Source: Candidatus Desantisiibacteriota bacterium
GTDB taxonomy: Bacteria; JACRDZ01
DNA: 14,582 bases
Reading direction: 5' to 3'
Assembly (NCBI GenBank): GCA_016209155.1
Contig: JACQWU010000126.1
Span: forward strand, 2,550 to 17,131
The notes beneath the pieces were generated by a model, which searched no databases, had not been told where the DNA came from, and worked only from the letters and a program-made list of their open reading frames with translations. The position numbers and the translations under genes were made by a program. Positions 458 through 13,419 of this stretch are shown piece by piece; the first letter of the stretch is position 1; every line of letters starts with the position of its first letter.

Positions 458-2728
458 ATGATCAATAAAAAAGATATGTCCGAAAGAGATATTTGTACAA
501 AATATATAACCCCTGCACTTCTGAAAGCAGGCTGGGATATACAGCTGCAAATAATGGAAGAGGTTAATCTTACAAAAGGGCGAGTTATTGTTCGCGGCAA
601 TCTTCATACTCGCGCAAAAAATAAACGCGCTGATTATATTCTTTATTACAAACCAAATATTCCAATCGCAATAATCGAAGCAAAAGACAATAATCATACA
701 GTTGGTGATGGGATGCAGCAGGCGCTAAGTTACGCGGAAATATGTGATGTTCCTTTTGTGTTTTCATCAAATGGCGATGCATTCCTATTTCACAATAAAT
801 TAGCAAAAGACGGTAAAATTGAAAAAGAAGTTACTTTAGATAAATTTCCATCTCCTCTTGAATTATGGCAACAATATTGTGAATCAAAAAGAATTGATAA
901 AACTCAAGAGGCAATTATAACTCAGGATTATTATGTTGATGGCAGCGGTAAAGCTCCAAGATATTACTACACTGCATTTCAAATTATATGGCGCTTATGG
1001 AAATCTAAAGCACGCAAGAGAATACTGTTTTTAGTTGATAGAAATATTCTGGCAGATCAGACCAAGACAAACGACTTTAAACCATTTGGTTCTGTTATGA
1101 CAAAAATCAAAAAACGTCAGGCAGATAAATCATACGAAATTTACCTCTCACTATATCAGGCAGTAACAGGTACTGAAGAAGAGCAAAACATATATAAACA
1201 ATTTTCTCCTGATTTCTTTGATCTGGTAATAATCGATGAATGCCACCGTGGAAGCGCGAAAGAGGATTCAAACTGGAGAGCTATTTTAGAATATTTCACA
1301 TCAGCTACGCAAATTGGCTTAACAGCAACCCCAAAAGAGACAAAGGAAGTATCAAATATTCATTACTTTGGAGATCCACTTTACACTTACTCTTTAAAAC
1401 AGGGAATAGAAGATGGCTTTCTTGCTCCTTATAAAGTAGTGAGAATTGATATTGATAAAGATCTGGCAGGCTGGCGTCCTGAAAAAGGGAAAAGAGATAA
1501 ATATGGCAATGAGATTGAAGATAGAATTTATAATCAGAGTGATTTAGATAAAAAACTAATACTCGAAAAAAGAACAGAACTGGTAGCGCAAAAAATATCA
1601 GAATTTTTAAAAGCAACAAACCGCTATGATAAAACCATTGTTTTCTGTGAGAATATTGATCATGCTGAAAGGATGCGTCAGGCACTTGTTAATGAAAATT
1701 TTGATTTAGCAGCTGAAAATGATAAATATGTTATGCGCATAACAGGAGATAATGAAGAAGGAAAAGCAGAGCTGGATAATTTTATTAATCCGGAATCAAT
1801 ATATCCTGTGATTGCCACAACATCAAAATTAATGTCAACAGGAGTTGATGCTCAAACATGTAAGCTGATAGTTCTTGATCAAACAATTCAATCTATGACA
1901 GAGTTTAAACAGATAATAGGACGCGGTACAAGAATAAATGAAGATTATGATAAATTCTACTTCACAATAATGGATTTTAAAAAAGCAACAGAACTTTTTG
2001 CTGATCCGGATTTTGACGGAGATCCGGTACAGATTCACAATCCAGGTCCGGATGATCCTCCAGTACCTCCTGATGATATTACAGATGATCCGCCAGAGGA
2101 TTCACCAGAACCAACGATAATTGATATATTTCCTAATGGAGGAGATGAACCACCCGGTGTAATTTATAGATTTGTAGTTGATGATGTCCCTGTTAAAGTT
2201 ATTGCTGAAAGAGTGCAATATTACGGTAAAGACGGCAGACTCATGACCGAATCGCTTAAAGACTATACAAAAAATACAATCACAAAAGAGTTTAAATCCT
2301 TAAATGATTTTTTAAAATACTGGTCTGACGCGGAAAAAAAAGATGCAATAATACATGAGCTGGAATCACATGGAATTTTTTTTGAAGCATTAAAAGAAGA
2401 AGTTGGAAAAGACTATGACCCATTTGATATGATTTGTCATATTGCATGGGGACAACCACCTCTAACTCGCAGGGAACGGGCAAACAATGTAAAAAAACGC
2501 GATAGTTTTACAAAGTACGGAGTCATAGCAAAAAAAGTTTTAGATGCATTGCTTGATAAATATGCCGACCAGGGAATAAAACATATAGAAGGTTTTAATG
2601 TTTTAACCATCCAACCTCTTTCAGCAATTGGAACACCAAAAGAAATTGTAGATGCTTTTGGAGGTAAAGACAATTACGTTACCGCAGTACACGAACTGGA
2701 GCAGGAACTATACAGAATAAGCGCTTAA
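458..2728 (+). CDS. hsdR: Type I restriction enzyme R subunit (HsdR, EcoEI-like) lacking Walker A segment
   Basis: This is the restriction and translocation subunit of a type I R-M complex. It would cleave unmethylated DNA after ATP-driven translocation. In the 756-residue product the N-terminal PD-(D/E)xK nuclease is present (D59, then EAK at 74-76). Helicase motifs DECH (260-263), GLTATP (287-292) and QIIGRGTR (485-492) follow, then an acidic, proline-rich linker and the EcoEI-type C-terminal domain. The Walker A P-loop is missing. Homologues run from PRYYQ through about 30 residues ending in GTGKT to YTAFQIIW, whereas here PRYY (167-170) joins YTAFQIIW directly (DNA near 965-970). The protein should not bind ATP normally and is probably dead for restriction. 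I prefer ATG 458 to the in-frame TTG at 431, because family members begin about here with [14 protein letters not shown]. The ribosome-binding site is weak. hsdM follows after 22 bases. Confidence 0.9.
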
Positions 2729-2750: not shown

Positions 2751-4214
2751 ATGTCAATAACTACCCTTATAAAAATGATACAGGACATAATGCGTAAAGA
2801 CGTTGGTGTTGATGGTGACGCACAGCGTATAAGTCAGATAGGATGGATGCTCTTTCTTAAAATATTTGACGACAAAGAAAAAGAATGGGAAATAACAATT
2901 CCGGATTATAAATCTCCAATCCCAAGCCGATTTCAATGGTCAAACTGGGCAAGAAATCCTGAGGGAATGACAGGTGAAGAACTTATAGAATTTATTAATA
3001 TTGAGCTTTTCCCAAAATTAAAAACTTTAGCAACAAAAGCAGGTTCTGACGAACGCGCGCGAGTTGTTGGCGCAGTGTTTGAAGATGGATACAACTACAT
3101 GAAATCAGGAACACTGCTAAGGCAAGTAGTAAATATCATACAAGAAGATCTGGATTTTAATTCATCCACAGACAGACACATGTTTAATGATATTTACGAA
3201 AAAATTCTTAAAGACTTACAATCAGCGGGTAATGCCGGAGAATACTACACACCAAGAGCAGTAACACAATTTATGGTTGAAATGATAAATCCGCGATTGG
3301 GTGAAAAAGTGCTTGATCCGGCCTGCGGAACAGGTGGATTTTTAGCGAATACAATAGAACATTTAAGAAAACAGGTTAAAAATAAAGAACACGAGAAACA
3401 GTTGCAAGACTCAATAAATGGAGTAGAGAAAAAACCCTTGCCTCATTTATTGGCAACAACAAACATGCTTCTGCATGGTATTGAAGTACCATCAAAAATA
3501 AGACATGATAATACACTCGCAAAGCCATTAATATCTTATGGCCCGGAAGACCGTGTTCATTGTATTATAACAAATCCTACATTTGGCGGAATGGAAGAAG
3601 ATGGAGTAGAATCAAATTTTCCAAAAAGCTTTCAAACTCGTGAAACAGCAGATTTATTTTTAGTGCTTATAATACATCTTTTAAAACCAAACGGCAAAGC
3701 AGGAATAGTTCTGCCTGATGGAACACTGTTTGGTGAAGGAATTAAAACCCGTATAAAAGAAAAACTTTTGGAAGAATGCAATTTGCACACAATTGTCCGT
3801 TTGCCAAACGGTGTTTTTAGCCCGTATACTGGAATAAAAACAAACCTGCTTTTTTTTACCAAAGGCGAAAAAACAAAAAATATCTGGTACTACGAACATC
3901 CATATCCGGAAGGATGCAAATCATACAATAAAACAAAACCAATGAGCATAGAAGAATTTGAGCCGGAAAAAAAATGGTGGAAAAAAAGAGCAGAAAATGA
4001 ACAAGCATGGAAAGTCTCAATAGAACAAATAAAAGCAAACAACTATAATCTGGATATAAAAAATCCAAATACTCAAGCTGAAGTTCATGCCGATCCCAAA
4101 GACATACTTAAAGACTATAACCTCCTTTCAAAAGAGATAGAACAAATTAGAAACAAACTGAAAAAAGAGTTGTCCACTGCTTGGGAGAAAGTAAATAATG
4201 AATTTTTTATTTGA
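2751..4214 (+). CDS. hsdM: Type I restriction-modification DNA methyltransferase subunit (HsdM)
   Basis: This 487-residue N6-adenine methyltransferase is the catalytic part of the M2S modification core and is of normal family length. It has an N-terminal helical HsdM domain (about 1-135), then the methyltransferase domain beginning near NAGEYYTPR (about 161-169). The S-adenosylmethionine motif DPACGTGGF is at about 189-197. The catalytic motif reads NPTF (275-278) where the family normally has NPPF; ACA replaces the usual proline codon at 3579-3581. The tail is a coiled-coil-like helical segment that should contact HsdS. A GGAGAAAA ribosome-binding site precedes the ATG. The stop codon lies 17 bases inside hsdS, so translation is probably coupled. 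The subunit assignment is firm; activity is doubtful because of the motif change. Confidence 0.93.
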   Translation: MSITTLIKMIQDIMRKDVGVDGDAQRISQIGWMLFLKIFDDKEKEWEITIPDYKSPIPSRFQWSNWARNPEGMTGEELIEFINIELFPKLKTLATKAGSDERARVVGAVFEDGYNYMKSGTLLRQVVNIIQEDLDFNSSTDRHMFNDIYEKILKDLQSAGNAGEYYTPRAVTQFMVEMINPRLGEKVLDPACGTGGFLANTIEHLRKQVKNKEHEKQLQDSINGVEKKPLPHLLATTNMLLHGIEVPSKIRHDNTLAKPLISYGPEDRVHCIITNPTFGGMEEDGVESNFPKSFQTRETADLFLVLIIHLLKPNGKAGIVLPDGTLFGEGIKTRIKEKLLEECNLHTIVRLPNGVFSPYTGIKTNLLFFTKGEKTKNIWYYEHPYPEGCKSYNKTKPMSIEEFEPEKKWWKKRAENEQAWKVSIEQIKANNYNLDIKNPNTQAEVHADPKDILKDYNLLSKEIEQIRNKLKKELSTAWEKVNNEFFI

Positions 4215-4318
4215 TAACTTTGAAGCTTTGATCGACGCTCCTAATGGAATAAAAAAAATTAAAGAGATGATACTGCAACTTGCAGTGCAGGGGAAGCTTG
4301 TAGATTTTTGGAAAAAAC

Positions 4319-4327
4319 AAAAAAAAA
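4319..4327 (+). repeat. A9 homopolymer at the hsdS frame break
   Basis: Nine consecutive As directly follow A6-C. The upstream frame reads CAA AAA AAA ATA and the downstream frame reads AAA AAT AAC GAG, so adding one A (or a -1 slip on A-AAA-AAA) restores HsdS. Homopolymers of this length are known to change length during replication and to cause RNA polymerase slippage. Confidence 0.7.
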
Positions 4328-4874
4328 TAACGAGCAATTATATAAAGAGGGGAAACTTAAAAAACAGAAAGAATTTGAAGTAGTTAAAAATGAAGAAATC
4401 CCTTATGAAATCCCACAAGGCTGGATTTGGGATAGAATTGGTAACACTGGAATAATATTTAATGGTGATAGTTTAAACTCAAAACAGAAAGAATGTTACA
4501 GCAATTGTAAAAATGGATTACCCTATATTTCAACAAAACATGTTGGATACGGTTCTAAAATTACTAACTATAAAGTGGAAATGAAGATACCATATGATGA
4601 ACCAAAATTTAGAATCGCACATAGTAATTCTGTTTTAATTTGTTCCGAAGGTGGTAGTGCTGGTAAAAAAATAGGTCTCATTGATAGAGATATTTGTTTC
4701 GGGAATAAGCTTTATGCAAATGAAACATTCTTGGGAATAACACCTAATTATATATACTATTTCTATCAAACTCCTTTTTTCTTTTATGAATTTAAAAAAA
4801 GGATGACTGGTATCATTGGTGGTATTTCAATAAATAGTTTCATAAATATTCCTATACCTATTCCTCCTACATTA

Positions 4875-4924
4875 GAACAAAAACGTATTGTTGCCAAAGT
4901 TGACGAGCTTATGGCTCTTTGTGA
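4875..4924 (+). repeat. hsdS central conserved repeat, copy 1
   Basis: This 50-bp stretch is a direct repeat of 5724-5773 with only two differences seen (cgt/cgc and gag/gaa). It encodes EQKRIVAKVDELMALC at the end of the first recognition half of HsdS. Such repeats bracket the recognition domains and allow recombination that swaps or moves them. Confidence 0.8.
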
Positions 4925-5723
4925 TGAGCTGGAAAAAAAGAAGGAAAAACAAAATAAAAAACGCATATCATTAAATAATGCATCATTAGATAAGCTGCTT
5001 AAATCAACTAAACAATCAGATTTTAATTATAATTTTAAAATCATTACTGACAATTTCGATATAATTTATAACACCCCTGAAAACGTAAAAAACTTAAAAC
5101 AGGCAATTCTTCAACTTGCAGTACAAGGCAAACTCGTCCCTCAAGACCCAAACGACGAACCTGCAAGTGTACTTTTGAAAAAAATAAAGAATGAGAAAGA
5201 AAAATTAATTAAAGAAGGAAAAATAAAAAAACAAGAACCTCTACCGGAAATAACAGAACAAGAAAAACCTTTTGAATTGCCAAAGGGGTGGGAGTGCTGC
5301 AGACTTGGGAATGTTACTAATTATGCATTAACCCAAAAAATAGAACCATCAAGCCTTAAATCTGAAATATGGGTTTTAGAACTTGAAGATATAGAAAAAG
5401 AAACTTCCAGAATTATTAAAAAAATGAGATTTGCAGAAAGACAATCTAAAAGTACTAAAAATGTATTTAATACTGGTGATGTCATATACGGTAAGTTACG
5501 TCCATATTTAGACAAGGTTATTATTGCAGACGAACCAGGAGTGTGTACAACGGAAATGATACCAGTTAATGGATATGGTTTTATATCACCACAATATCTT
5601 AGGTGGTTCTTAAAATCTCCATATTTCATAGAATATGCAAACTCTTCAACACACGGAATGAAAATGCCAAGATTGGGAACCGATAGAGCTTTAAATTCAA
5701 TTTGTACTTTACCTCCTCTCAAC

Positions 5724-5773
5724 GAACAAAAACGCATTGTTGCCAAAGTTGACGAACTTATGGCTCTTTGTGA
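5724..5773 (+). repeat. hsdS distal conserved repeat, copy 2
   Basis: This is the second copy of the 50-bp direct repeat at 4875-4924, about 850 bp downstream, and encodes the same EQKRIVAKVDELMALC helix. Homologous recombination between the copies would delete one recognition half. Confidence 0.8.
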
Positions 5774-5944
5774 CAATCTAGAAAATAAATTAACATCCAT
5801 CAGTCACAAAAGTGAGAAAATGATAAACGCAATAGCAAATAAGATAGGGTATAAATGAATATCGAAGCATAATTGGATAGTTTTAAGAAATTTATGGGAA
5901 TTATTAATAATAATTAAGTTGTTTCTCATAGAAGGTAATAAAAA

Positions 5945-6979
5945 ATGGAACTAAAAGATTATAAAAGTGTTGTTAATTATTTAAATAGTAAAAAACGAGA
6001 AAAGCATCTTTTGTTGGGTAATGGTTTTAGTATGTCTTATGATAGGACTATCTTTTCTTACAATGCATTGAGTGACTTTCTAAACCAGTCAGAGGATAAG
6101 TTACTTAAAAAACTATTTAGTATAATCAATACGCGTAATTTTGAGTTGATAATGAAACAGCTGGATGTTTTTTATGAATTAGCAAAAGAGTTTTCAAAAG
6201 ATAAGAATTTCGCAAAAAATGTAATAATCGCAAGAGATTCCTTAAAAACAAAACTTATTGATGCGATAACCACATTACATCCAGAGCATGTTTTTAAAAT
6301 TCCTGAAGAAAAGAGTCTCAAATGTGCTGATTTTCTTAATGAATATCTTGGCTCTGGAGGACATGTATTTTCGACTAATTATGATTTGTTATTGTATTGG
6401 GTGCTTATGAAAAACAAAGAACGGTTAACCAACATTGAAGATGGTTTTGGTCGTGACCTTATTGAAAAAGATGCATTTGAGTCGGATTGTCAACCTGAGT
6501 TTGGTGAGTTAGAGTGGGGAAATAACAGGAATGTTCAGTGTGTTCATTATGTACACGGGGCATTACATTTATTTGATTCAGGAGTAGCTATTAGGAAAGA
6601 AACATATGATGGAGAATTTTTACTAGAGAATATTAAAAAACGTATAGAAAAGAAAGAATACCCAATCTTTGTTACTGCTGGTGATGGAAAGCAAAAGCTT
6701 GACCATATACTGCATAATCAATATTTAGACTATTGCTATAAGCAATTGTCTTCAATACAGGGATCCTTAATAACATTTGGTTTCAACTTTGGAGCTTATG
6801 ATAAGCACATTATTGATGCAATTAATAAGGCAGCTAAACAAGATAAATCAAAACGACTTTGGAGTATATATATTGGAGTTTATTCAGATGAGGACAAAAG
6901 GCATATTGAGAGTATTAGCTCAAAGTTTAAATGTAAAGTTAATCTCTTTGATTCTAAAACCGTTTCTATTTGGGAATAA
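5945..6979 (+). CDS. DUF4917 family SIR2-like protein, putative NAD-linked defence effector
   Basis: This is an intact 344-residue protein with the pattern I recognise as DUF4917, a family with SIR2-like sequence features. LLGNGFSMSYD at 23-33 resembles the nucleotide-binding start of SIR2-like proteins. STNYD at 143-147 matches the TTNYD-type motif, and HYVHG (H204) corresponds to the catalytic histidine region. GFNFGAYDKHI at 279-289 matches the C-terminal G-x-S-x-x-D-x-H-I type motif. SIR2-like proteins in defence islands often deplete NAD+; this function is inferred and not shown for this family. There is no signal peptide or membrane segment. A GAAGGT ribosome-binding site precedes the ATG, 86 bases after hsdS. 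It is the only island gene without a visible lesion. It could also be a metabolic or regulatory NAD-binding protein. Confidence 0.8.
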   Translation: MELKDYKSVVNYLNSKKREKHLLLGNGFSMSYDRTIFSYNALSDFLNQSEDKLLKKLFSIINTRNFELIMKQLDVFYELAKEFSKDKNFAKNVIIARDSLKTKLIDAITTLHPEHVFKIPEEKSLKCADFLNEYLGSGGHVFSTNYDLLLYWVLMKNKERLTNIEDGFGRDLIEKDAFESDCQPEFGELEWGNNRNVQCVHYVHGALHLFDSGVAIRKETYDGEFLLENIKKRIEKKEYPIFVTAGDGKQKLDHILHNQYLDYCYKQLSSIQGSLITFGFNFGAYDKHIIDAINKAAKQDKSKRLWSIYIGVYSDEDKRHIESISSKFKCKVNLFDSKTVSIWE

Positions 6980-7421: not shown

Positions 7422-8015
7422 ATGAATAGAAATGATATACCTGAATTACATTTTATTACATATATTGAAAATATCCCATCTATATTGCGGTATGGAATTT
7501 TATCTCATAATAAAATAAAAACGCAAAAATTGAACTATTGTGATATTTCAGAGTAAGGAGTTCAAGATCGAAGGGCAGTTAAAAGAATTCCCAATATAAA
7601 TAAGAGCTTACATGATTATGCTAACCTGTATTTTGATGCACATAATCCGATGTTAAGTGCAAGAAGGTCAAAAAATGATATTATTTGTGTTCTTAGAATA
7701 AAAAATACAATTTTAGAAATTGAAGGTGTAATTGTAACGGATAAAAATGCTGCAAGGGATTGCTGGTTTAAAACAGTTAATGAAGGATTGCCATTATTGA
7801 GTACAGATGAAATTTTTTCAACTTATTGGACTAAAAATGATGATTATTTAGAGAAAGAGAGGTTAAAAGGAATAAAGTGTGCGGAAGTTTTAGTTCCATA
7901 TTGCGTTAAACCGGATTATATTTTCGGGGCTTATGTTGCTAATGAAATAGCTTTAAATAAATTATGTAAAATTTCAAATATAAATGTTATAATTAAAAAT
8001 AATCTATTTTTTTAA
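7422..8015 (+). pseudogene. darT: DarT-like DNA ADP-ribosyltransferase toxin (DUF4433), interrupted by in-frame TAA
   Basis: DarT transfers ADP-ribose from NAD+ onto thymidine in single-stranded DNA and blocks replication. The frame from ATG 7422 spans 198 codons and is interrupted only by TAA at codon 45 (7554-7556). The first part reads ELHFITYIENIPSILRYGIL, a family-typical start. After the stop come VQDRR (47-51), LHDYANLYFDAHNPML, TDKNAARDCWF and AEVLVP, whose glutamate (residue 155) corresponds to the catalytic Glu. No frameshift is present, so a single base change would restore a full-length toxin. AAAGG lies upstream of the start. Re-initiation at ATG 7650 would give a 121-residue C-terminal piece without the NAD-binding N-terminus. 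darG follows after 13 bases, the normal toxin-antitoxin order. Family call is firm; the toxin is almost certainly off unless the stop is read through. Confidence 0.88.
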
Positions 8016-8028
8016 AGAGGTATTAATT

Positions 8029-9153
8029 ATGAATATGAAAATTTTAATCGGCGATATTTTTCAATCTGAAGCGCAGACTATTATAAATACTGTAAATTGT
8101 GTTGGGATTATGGGAAAAGGGATTGCCGCTGAATTTAAAAAACGATATCCCCTGATGTTTGAAGATTATGTTGCTCGTTGTGAGCGAAAAGAGGTTCTTC
8201 CGGGGATACCGTATTTATTTAAAGAATCTATGTTTGATCCTCAAATAATAAACTTTCCTACAAAATCACATTGGCGTGCTGCTTCTAATATTGATGATAT
8301 TGATAAAGGATTAAAAATACTTTCAGGAAAATATAAAGAATGGTGTGTTGAATCTATTGCAATACCCCCGCTTGGTTGTGGAAATGGCCAACTGCTCTGG
8401 GAGTCTGTTGGGCCTCTTATTTAGAAATATGTATCAGAGTGGGATATCCCTGTTAAATTATATGCTCCCTATGGTACGCCTGCTTCACAATTAACAATTG
8501 ATTTTTTATCCAGTGAATCCAGCAGTTTGATAAAAGTAGCATGGTCTGGTATGAAAATACTGCAAAAAATAAATCCTGCATGGATTGTATTAACTGAAAT
8601 TATATATCGGATTGAACAGCAAAAATATCATATGCCAATAGGCCGAACTATATTTCAAAAAATTGCTTATGTTGCGACTGTACTTGGTTTGCCAACAGGA
8701 TTGAATCATATAAGAGCATCTTATGGTCCATATTGCAGTGAGCTGGATGAAGTTAAAAAAAGATTAGCAAATGCAGGATTAATTCAAGAACAGAGATTAG
8801 GAAGTATGTTTAAAGTACTTCCAGGATTGGAATATAAAAACACCAGAGAAAAATATCAGGAAGAGATAAAAAAATGGGATTGTTTAATTAATAAAACAAC
8901 TGATTTATTCCTGCGTTTAGATACAAATAAAGCTGAGATTGTAGCTACAGTTTTATTTGTTGAAAAAGAAATAAATAAAAAAAATGATAAAACAGAACAA
9001 GATGTTTTAAATGAAGTGATGAAATGGAAACAGAAAAGAAGACCCCCTGTGAATGAAAAAGAAGTTGCAGAAACAATACGTAATCTTGGTATTTTGAAAT
9101 GGTTTAATTTAAAACCATCGCATGAATTACTAGTTAATGATTATGAATTTTAA
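8029..9153 (+). pseudogene. darG: DarG-like macrodomain antitoxin, interrupted by in-frame TAG
   Basis: DarG removes ADP-ribose from DNA through its macrodomain and also binds DarT through its C-terminal part. The frame from ATG 8029 runs 375 codons with one internal stop, TAG at codon 132 (8422-8424). Before it lies the macrodomain: INTVNCVGIMGKGIAAEFKK (20-38), FPTKSHWR with the catalytic-type lysine K79, and IPPLGCGNGQL (112-122). After it, in the same frame, come KYVSEWDIPVKLYAPYGTP and the DarT-binding-type C-terminal region ending DYEF. The stop falls where related proteins usually have tyrosine in an LYxYL-like segment. As it stands, a nearly complete macrodomain of 131 residues would be made, and a C-terminal piece could start at about 8527. 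AGAGG precedes the start. Confidence 0.87.
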
Positions 9154-12045: not shown

Positions 12046-13419
12046 TTAACCTACCACATCAAATTTTCTGATTTTATATGCAACTCCCAAATTTTGTGCC
12101 AATTTACGGCACGCATCCAAATCAAGATCCGGTAGTTCCACAAAAGTTATTACTACTTTAGGAATAACTTTTTTACACTCCAGAATAAATTTCATAACCT
12201 CATCAAATGTGCCTTCACCGAATTCCGGACAGCATACCTGCATATATTTATTTTTATCAAGAGCATTAAGGCTGATGCATATTTCATCAATAATACCGGA
12301 AAATTTCGGGACAATATTTTCTATGCTCATTAAATATCCATGCACGTTTGTGTCAATTCTCACATGTTTTACTCCCATATTTTTCAGCGCAGCGGCTATT
12401 TTAAGCACAACCTCAATACGTAATAACGGTTCTCCATAACCGCAAAATACAACTTCACGATATTTTGAAATTACCGGTTTTATTTCCTTAAGGAGGTCAT
12501 CAACAGTCGGTTCAATATTAAACTTAAGCAGGTGTCCCTGTAAAAAATCCTGTTTATATCTTAAACAAAAAAAACAGCTGTTACTGCATTGATTGGTAAT
12601 ATTAAGATATAATGAATCGCGTATAGGATAAACAATCACAGGTTTTTGTTGTATTGGCAGATTAAATAATTTTATCGCATTTAAAGCAGTAATACGTCCA
12701 ATATCATCAGATGAAAGCATTTTAATTTCCGCTAACTTTTGAGCTGTATATTTAACATATGCCGGCATATTTCTTTTGCCTCTCTCAGGCTGAGGTGAAA
12801 GATAAGGACAATCAGTTTCTATCAGAATTCGTTCCATGGGGATATAACTTATTAATTTATTTATATTTTCATTTTTTTTAAATGTTATCTGTCCCGCAAA
12901 AGATATATGGAAATTCATATCCATAAATTTTTTAGCTATTTCAATATCACCCGAAAAACAATGAGCAACACCCCCGATCTCTTCAGCACTTTCCTGTTCC
13001 ATAATTTTCAAAGTGTCGTCAAAAGCTTCACGGGAATGAATTATTAAAGGCTTTTTTACTTCTCTTGCCAATCTGATAAATCTTGCAAAAACTTCTCTCT
13101 GTTTATCAACAGGTGAAAGATTTCTATAATAATCAAGCCCTACTTCACCGACAGCTATTGCTTTTTTATGTAACAAAAGCTCCCTTATGGCAATGTAATC
13201 TTCTTCCTTCATTTTATTGGCATCATGCGGATGAAAACCGCAGCTGGCATAAATAAAATCATATTTTTCAGACAATTTGACAGATTCGATACTGCTTTGC
13301 GTATTAAGTCCTATATTTAACATTAGCTTTACATTTTCGCTCAATGCCGTATTTATAACAGTATCTCTGTCCGGATCAAATATACTATCATCTAAATGCA
13401 CATGAGAATCAAAATACAT
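12046..13419 (-). CDS. TatD family hydrolase fused to a radical SAM domain
   Basis: This 457-residue protein has two parts. Residues 1-255 form a TatD-type metal-dependent hydrolase with its usual metal ligands: DSHVH (H6, H8), GEVGLDYY (E92), H128 in IIHSRE, H153 in AHCFSG and D203 in ETDCPYL. TatD proteins are 3'-5' DNA exonucleases or deoxyribonucleases. Residues 265-457 form a compact radical-SAM domain with TNQCSNSCFFC (C278, C282, C285), CGYGEPLL and an IDTNVHG motif, matching the TatD-associated radical-SAM family. Its substrate is unknown to me. A GGAGG site lies before ATG 13419, and the metG stop is only 17 bases upstream, so the two are probably co-transcribed. The classic neighbour order metG-tatD is kept. 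All key residues are present. Confidence 0.9.
   Translation of the reverse strand: MYFDSHVHLDDSIFDPDRDTVINTALSENVKLMLNIGLNTQSSIESVKLSEKYDFIYASCGFHPHDANKMKEEDYIAIRELLLHKKAIAVGEVGLDYYRNLSPVDKQREVFARFIRLAREVKKPLIIHSREAFDDTLKIMEQESAEEIGGVAHCFSGDIEIAKKFMDMNFHISFAGQITFKKNENINKLISYIPMERILIETDCPYLSPQPERGKRNMPAYVKYTAQKLAEIKMLSSDDIGRITALNAIKLFNLPIQQKPVIVYPIRDSLYLNITNQCSNSCFFCLRYKQDFLQGHLLKFNIEPTVDDLLKEIKPVISKYREVVFCGYGEPLLRIEVVLKIAAALKNMGVKHVRIDTNVHGYLMSIENIVPKFSGIIDEICISLNALDKNKYMQVCCPEFGEGTFDEVMKFILECKKVIPKVVITFVELPDLDLDACRKLAQNLGVAYKIRKFDVVG

Follow-up and report, generated by a model that had tools for sequence, protein, structure and literature searches.

The hsdR gene on this stretch of DNA raises the question of whether a restriction subunit that lacks its ATP-binding loop, and is uneroded elsewhere, represents a new kind of protein or the remnant of an ordinary restriction system. 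The window (the whole stretch of 14,582 nucleotides that was analysed) comprises bases 2550-17131 of a 17131-base contig and belongs to a draft genome of 352 contigs, which is 79% complete and contains N-gaps nearby. The second is the most likely answer, with an ordinary restriction-modification (R-M) system that is dead or dying; more specifically, it is probable (about 0.8) that the locus is a recently inactivated type IB R-M operon inside a decaying defence island. The gene and its lesion are located as follows.

458..2728, + strand: hsdR, type IB (EcoAI/EcoEI family), 756 aa, assigned by Pfam domains, PADLOC and an alignment with 90 relatives
965..970, + strand: deletion junction TAC/TAC, with 90 bp gone between 967 and 968, from a codon-level comparison with relatives

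The open reading frame of hsdR spans positions 431-2728, and the start codon typical of the family, the ATG at 458, yields the protein of 756 amino acids. PADLOC recognizes it as REase_I (1127 bits), and the Pfam domains HSDR_N, ResIII, Helicase_C and EcoEI_R_C are found in the same order as in the type IB systems EcoAI, EcoEI, CfrAI and StySKI (the 'EcoAI/FtnUII family' of NCBI). The operon order hsdR-hsdM-hsdS is also shared with these systems, as hsdM and hsdS directly follow hsdR. HsdR of the window is 65-70% identical to many HsdR proteins of the EcoAI/EcoEI family, its nearest solved structure is 3h1t, a HsdR fragment of Vibrio vulnificus, and a fold search with its model retrieved HsdR (3h1t, EcoR124I) and other SF2 helicases only. 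The N-terminal PD-(D/E)XK nuclease (PF04313 and PF13588) carries an intact D...EAK motif, the SF2 motifs II, III and VI (DECH, TATP and QIIGRGTR) are all present and invariant, and the EcoEI_R_C domain is complete (PF08463 positions 1-163 of 163, 120.7 bits). SF2 motif I, i.e., the Walker A sequence ATGTGKT together with the Q-motif helix, is missing, and the protein is therefore filed as a broken descendant and not as a working HsdR. The loss of this 30-residue P-loop segment is also the reason why the ResIII match begins only at profile position 33. Of the 172 alignment columns with at least 97% invariance in the family, 15 are gaps in the window protein that coincide with the deletion, and none of the other 157 positions is substituted, which bears out the preliminary description of the nuclease, the DECH box and the later helicase motifs as intact. 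Three differences set the window apart from the known type IB systems: the 30 residues with Walker A are gone, hsdS is frameshifted and motif IV of HsdM is altered.

In the window protein, the sequence PRYY (through position 967) abuts YTAFQIIW (from 968), and relatives have exactly 30 additional residues at this point. The additional segment shows no length variation across the close HsdR family and is kept in all 90 aligned bacterial and archaeal relatives as well as in all nine relatives from viral contigs. The alignment with EcoEI-type proteins that had been proposed as a check therefore confirms a precise in-frame loss of about 30 residues including GTGKT, and a functional clade of HsdR proteins lacking the segment, which would have spoken against a lesion, was found neither among the 90 bacterial and archaeal nor among the nine viral-contig relatives. 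The lost part is larger than GTGKT: besides the ATGTGKT loop, it takes in the Q-motif helix and the first RecA1 strand. The AlphaFold model of L009, a relative with an intact HsdR, shows these elements as the helix 169-183, the strand 188-193 and the loop that follows.

The preliminary description had seen a TAC microhomology at positions 965-970, an idea that the codon comparison rejects. The codons before the junction are TAT TAC and those after it TAC ACT, and each pair is native to its own side, as RYY and YTAF occur separately on the two sides of the segment in relatives. Since one Tyr codon belongs to either side, the doubled TAC is what a blunt join is expected to leave. Given the codons of the relatives (Q = CAR, T = ACN), the sequence common to both sides of the junction amounts to at most 1 nt (one C), and the break point would shift to 966/967 had the missing Thr codon been ACC. 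Words shared by the 70-base flanks do not exceed 7 nt. A blunt deletion of 90 bp by illegitimate recombination, with at most 1 nt of homology, would have removed the Q-motif helix, the first RecA1 strand and the P-loop. The junction sequence was not found in viral contigs, and a close HsdR homologue by which the deletion could be dated was absent from three other genomes of the phylum. The pristine state of the remaining protein is compatible with a young deletion, an artefact or selection on the remainder, and suggests, as far as can be judged from the sequence, a young event.

It is almost certain that the window HsdR no longer has a working motor. Replacement of one Walker A residue in the HsdR of EcoKI (K477R) is sufficient to eliminate ATP hydrolysis, translocation and cleavage (PMC4231737), and the same three activities are expected to be absent here. 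The EcoKI mutation is an engineered point substitution, whereas the window protein is devoid of the whole P-loop and the preceding helix and strand. By analogy with K477R, which is already inactive (PMC4231737), the earlier proposal is supported in so far as this HsdR, although almost of full length, should neither bind nor hydrolyse ATP in the normal way. In the AlphaFold predictions, the RecA1 (ATPase) domain has a mean pLDDT of 56 compared to 83 in the intact L009, and the nuclease and C-terminal domains reach 81 and 81 in the window protein and 91 and 84 in L009, so that these two domains are predicted with fair confidence in both proteins. If made, the window HsdR would accordingly retain its nuclease and C-terminal domains and would be unable to bind ATP, translocate or cut DNA. 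A natural counterpart is known from Staphylococcus aureus JSNZ, in which an in-frame deletion removes HsdR residues 705-876 next to intact M and S subunits (PMC12554148), and its authors inferred that restriction is abolished (PMC12554148). Both cases are in-frame internal losses; however, JSNZ lost 172 aa of a C-terminal domain with M and S intact, and the window lost 30 aa around the P-loop and has damaged M and S. An EcoAI-type hsdR is present in 965 E. coli genomes, of which 935 cover 80% or more of the gene, a count that is blind to a 90-bp loss, and strongly truncated copies thus make up around 3% in nature.

The two genes downstream of hsdR carry lesions of their own:

2751..4214, + strand: hsdM, 487 aa, full length (N6_Mtase, 266 bits)
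3579..3581, + strand: P277T (ACA) in HsdM, changing catalytic motif IV from NPPF to NPTF; proline in all 67 relatives
4198..4383, + strand: 5' part of hsdS (MNFLFDNFEALIDAPNGIKKIKEMILQLAVQGKLV), followed by out-of-frame sequence up to a stop, from three-frame translation and the N-termini of relatives
4303..4308, + strand: net loss of 31 nt in hsdS; the GKLV-LEKT interval measures 5 nt, compared to 36 in most relatives
4308..5858, + strand: remainder of hsdS, which lies in a different frame and encodes both target recognition domains (Methylase_S; Specificity_I, 498 bits)

HsdM is 72% identical to the HsdM of the relative L059 over 480 residues, and P277T is its sole deviation among 136 invariant columns and unique among 68 sequences. 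In gamma-class methyltransferases, the site of methyl transfer is formed by the NPPF motif (PMC3874165), and a functional type I R-M system would be expected to carry it in place of NPTF. The effect of P277T in this HsdM family is read from the sequence, and the protein could keep some activity, which weakens the decay interpretation at this point. hsdS starts with the ATG at 4198 and the usual FDNFEAL...QLAVQGKLV, after which the frame is lost, so that an uninterrupted HsdS with the N-terminal conserved helix and two target recognition domains (TRDs) is no longer encoded. GKLV and LEKI are separated by 12 aa in nine of the 13 matched segments of relatives and by no fewer in any of them. A tract of nine A residues lies just downstream of the 31-nt deletion. 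Slippage in this homopolymer was considered, but the frame already matches that of the relatives from LEKT on, i.e., before the tract, and is better explained by the upstream loss of 31 nt. Both TRDs remain in an ORF of 516 codons with a possible TTG start.

Damage extends into the neighbouring genes of the island:

5945..6979, + strand: DUF4917 SIR2-like candidate defence gene (PDC-S21), matching PF16263 at 1-311 of 311 and PDC-S21 at 1-334 of 336
7422..8015, + strand: darT with an in-frame TAA at 7554-7556; read through, it matches DarT positions 2-200 of 201 (114 bits)
8029..9153, + strand: darG with an in-frame TAG at 8422-8424; two ORFs in the same frame match DarG 3-129 and 159-325 of 329

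darT and darG form an adjoining toxin-antitoxin pair, and each stop lies within a single, otherwise continuous frame with profile matches on both sides; the 3' ORF of darT alone scores 42.5 bits, compared to 114 bits when the TAA is read through. Lesions are thus present in each of the R-M subunits and in darT as well as darG, and the DUF4917 gene, judging from its profile matches, is apparently intact. Further downstream (12046-13419), a TatD DNase domain and a radical SAM domain are joined in one ORF. According to the preferred reading of a decaying operon, the 90-bp deletion would have disabled HsdR, separate lesions affect HsdM (NPPF to NPTF) and hsdS (the frameshifting 31-nt deletion), and the adjoining darTG pair is stopped in both genes. 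The deletion, its length, its absence from relatives and the other lesions are observed, and from them we infer the loss of activity, the recency and order of the events and a lack of selection. The uneroded remainder of hsdR and the in-frame nature of its deletion speak against this reading, since both would equally be expected of an artefact or of a variant under selection, and it is based on one draft assembly (352 contigs, 79% complete) of a single strain.

Gene integrity in the rest of the genome was sampled by family. Internal stops were absent from 44 ABC_tran, 50 Radical_SAM and 5 tRNA-synt_1 matches (approximately 99), and a genome-wide error rate is therefore not supported as the cause of the lesions, although one Radical_SAM gene on contig C82 looks split. 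Stop or frameshift lesions affect three of the six defence genes of the window compared to 0 of the 99 matches (Fisher p ~1e-4), a comparison that was made post hoc with unequal screening and is only indicative. Stop-codon recoding was rejected, because TAA, TAG and TGA all occur among the lesions and all three also terminate genes on the sampled contigs. Two further hsdR loci were found. A remnant on contig C308 (L119 3009-4777) is scattered across three frames and contains stops, and its Walker A region is also gone; its neighbours are an oligopeptide-type ABC transporter gene on one side and, on the other, a Fic-like ORF that was recognized by eye. A third type I hsdR on contig C186 (L127 1577-4747) has a single in-frame TGA (FKHC-stop-MEPV), and the accompanying hsdS and hsdM look intact. 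On contig C289 (L121 3211-3726), the ORF of an ABC transporter ATPase starts past Walker A (profile 38-137) and is preceded by an unrelated ORF.

An assembly or sequencing artefact, in which the hsdR of the organism is intact and the assembly dropped the 90 bp, for example because of a chimeric read or a mis-joined contig, is the alternative that survives best, and we regard it as unlikely. It would account for the pristine remainder of hsdR, and it is favoured by the fragmented state of the draft (352 contigs, N-gaps nearby). However, homology at the junction is limited to 1 nt at most, and within 70 bases the flanks have no word above 7 nt in common, which makes a k-mer collapse no ready explanation; moreover, the island carries four further lesions, in contrast to about 99 non-defence matches that are free of internal stops.

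Another alternative is that restriction is switched off and modification left on, with the HsdR motor lost first (the safe order) and the methyltransferase persisting as a regulatory enzyme. The full-length HsdM, the 516-codon ORF with both TRDs and the precedent of JSNZ, where M and S are intact (PMC12554148), would fit such a scenario, but it is very improbable given the frameshifted N-terminus of hsdS, the NPTF motif at a proline found in all 67 relatives, and the stops in darT and darG. Least plausible of all, and barely credible, is a P-loop-free HsdR that is expressed and selected as a non-catalytic component, e.g., a DNA-bound decoy or an inhibitor that titrates the subunits of other type I enzymes: the in-frame deletion and the pristine nuclease and C-terminal domains would suit it, but a second example is absent among the 99 relatives, site-specific DNA binding would require the damaged HsdM and HsdS, and the predicted RecA1 domain is poorly ordered. 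As the whole island is damaged, the suggestions of the preliminary description, i.e., modification without restriction or a DNA-bound decoy, are unsupported.

An in-frame internal HsdR deletion that was inferred to abolish restriction is already known from S. aureus JSNZ (PMC12554148), and the findings do not change any view of the mechanism of type I enzymes. The locus adds a further clear case in which a type I R-M operon falls silent: all three subunits carry lesions, as does the neighbouring DarTG pair, while the surrounding genes look sound. It furthermore serves as a warning for annotation: a domain search would still call the hsdR of the window a type I restriction enzyme, and a long, unfrayed HsdR reading frame need not equal working restriction.
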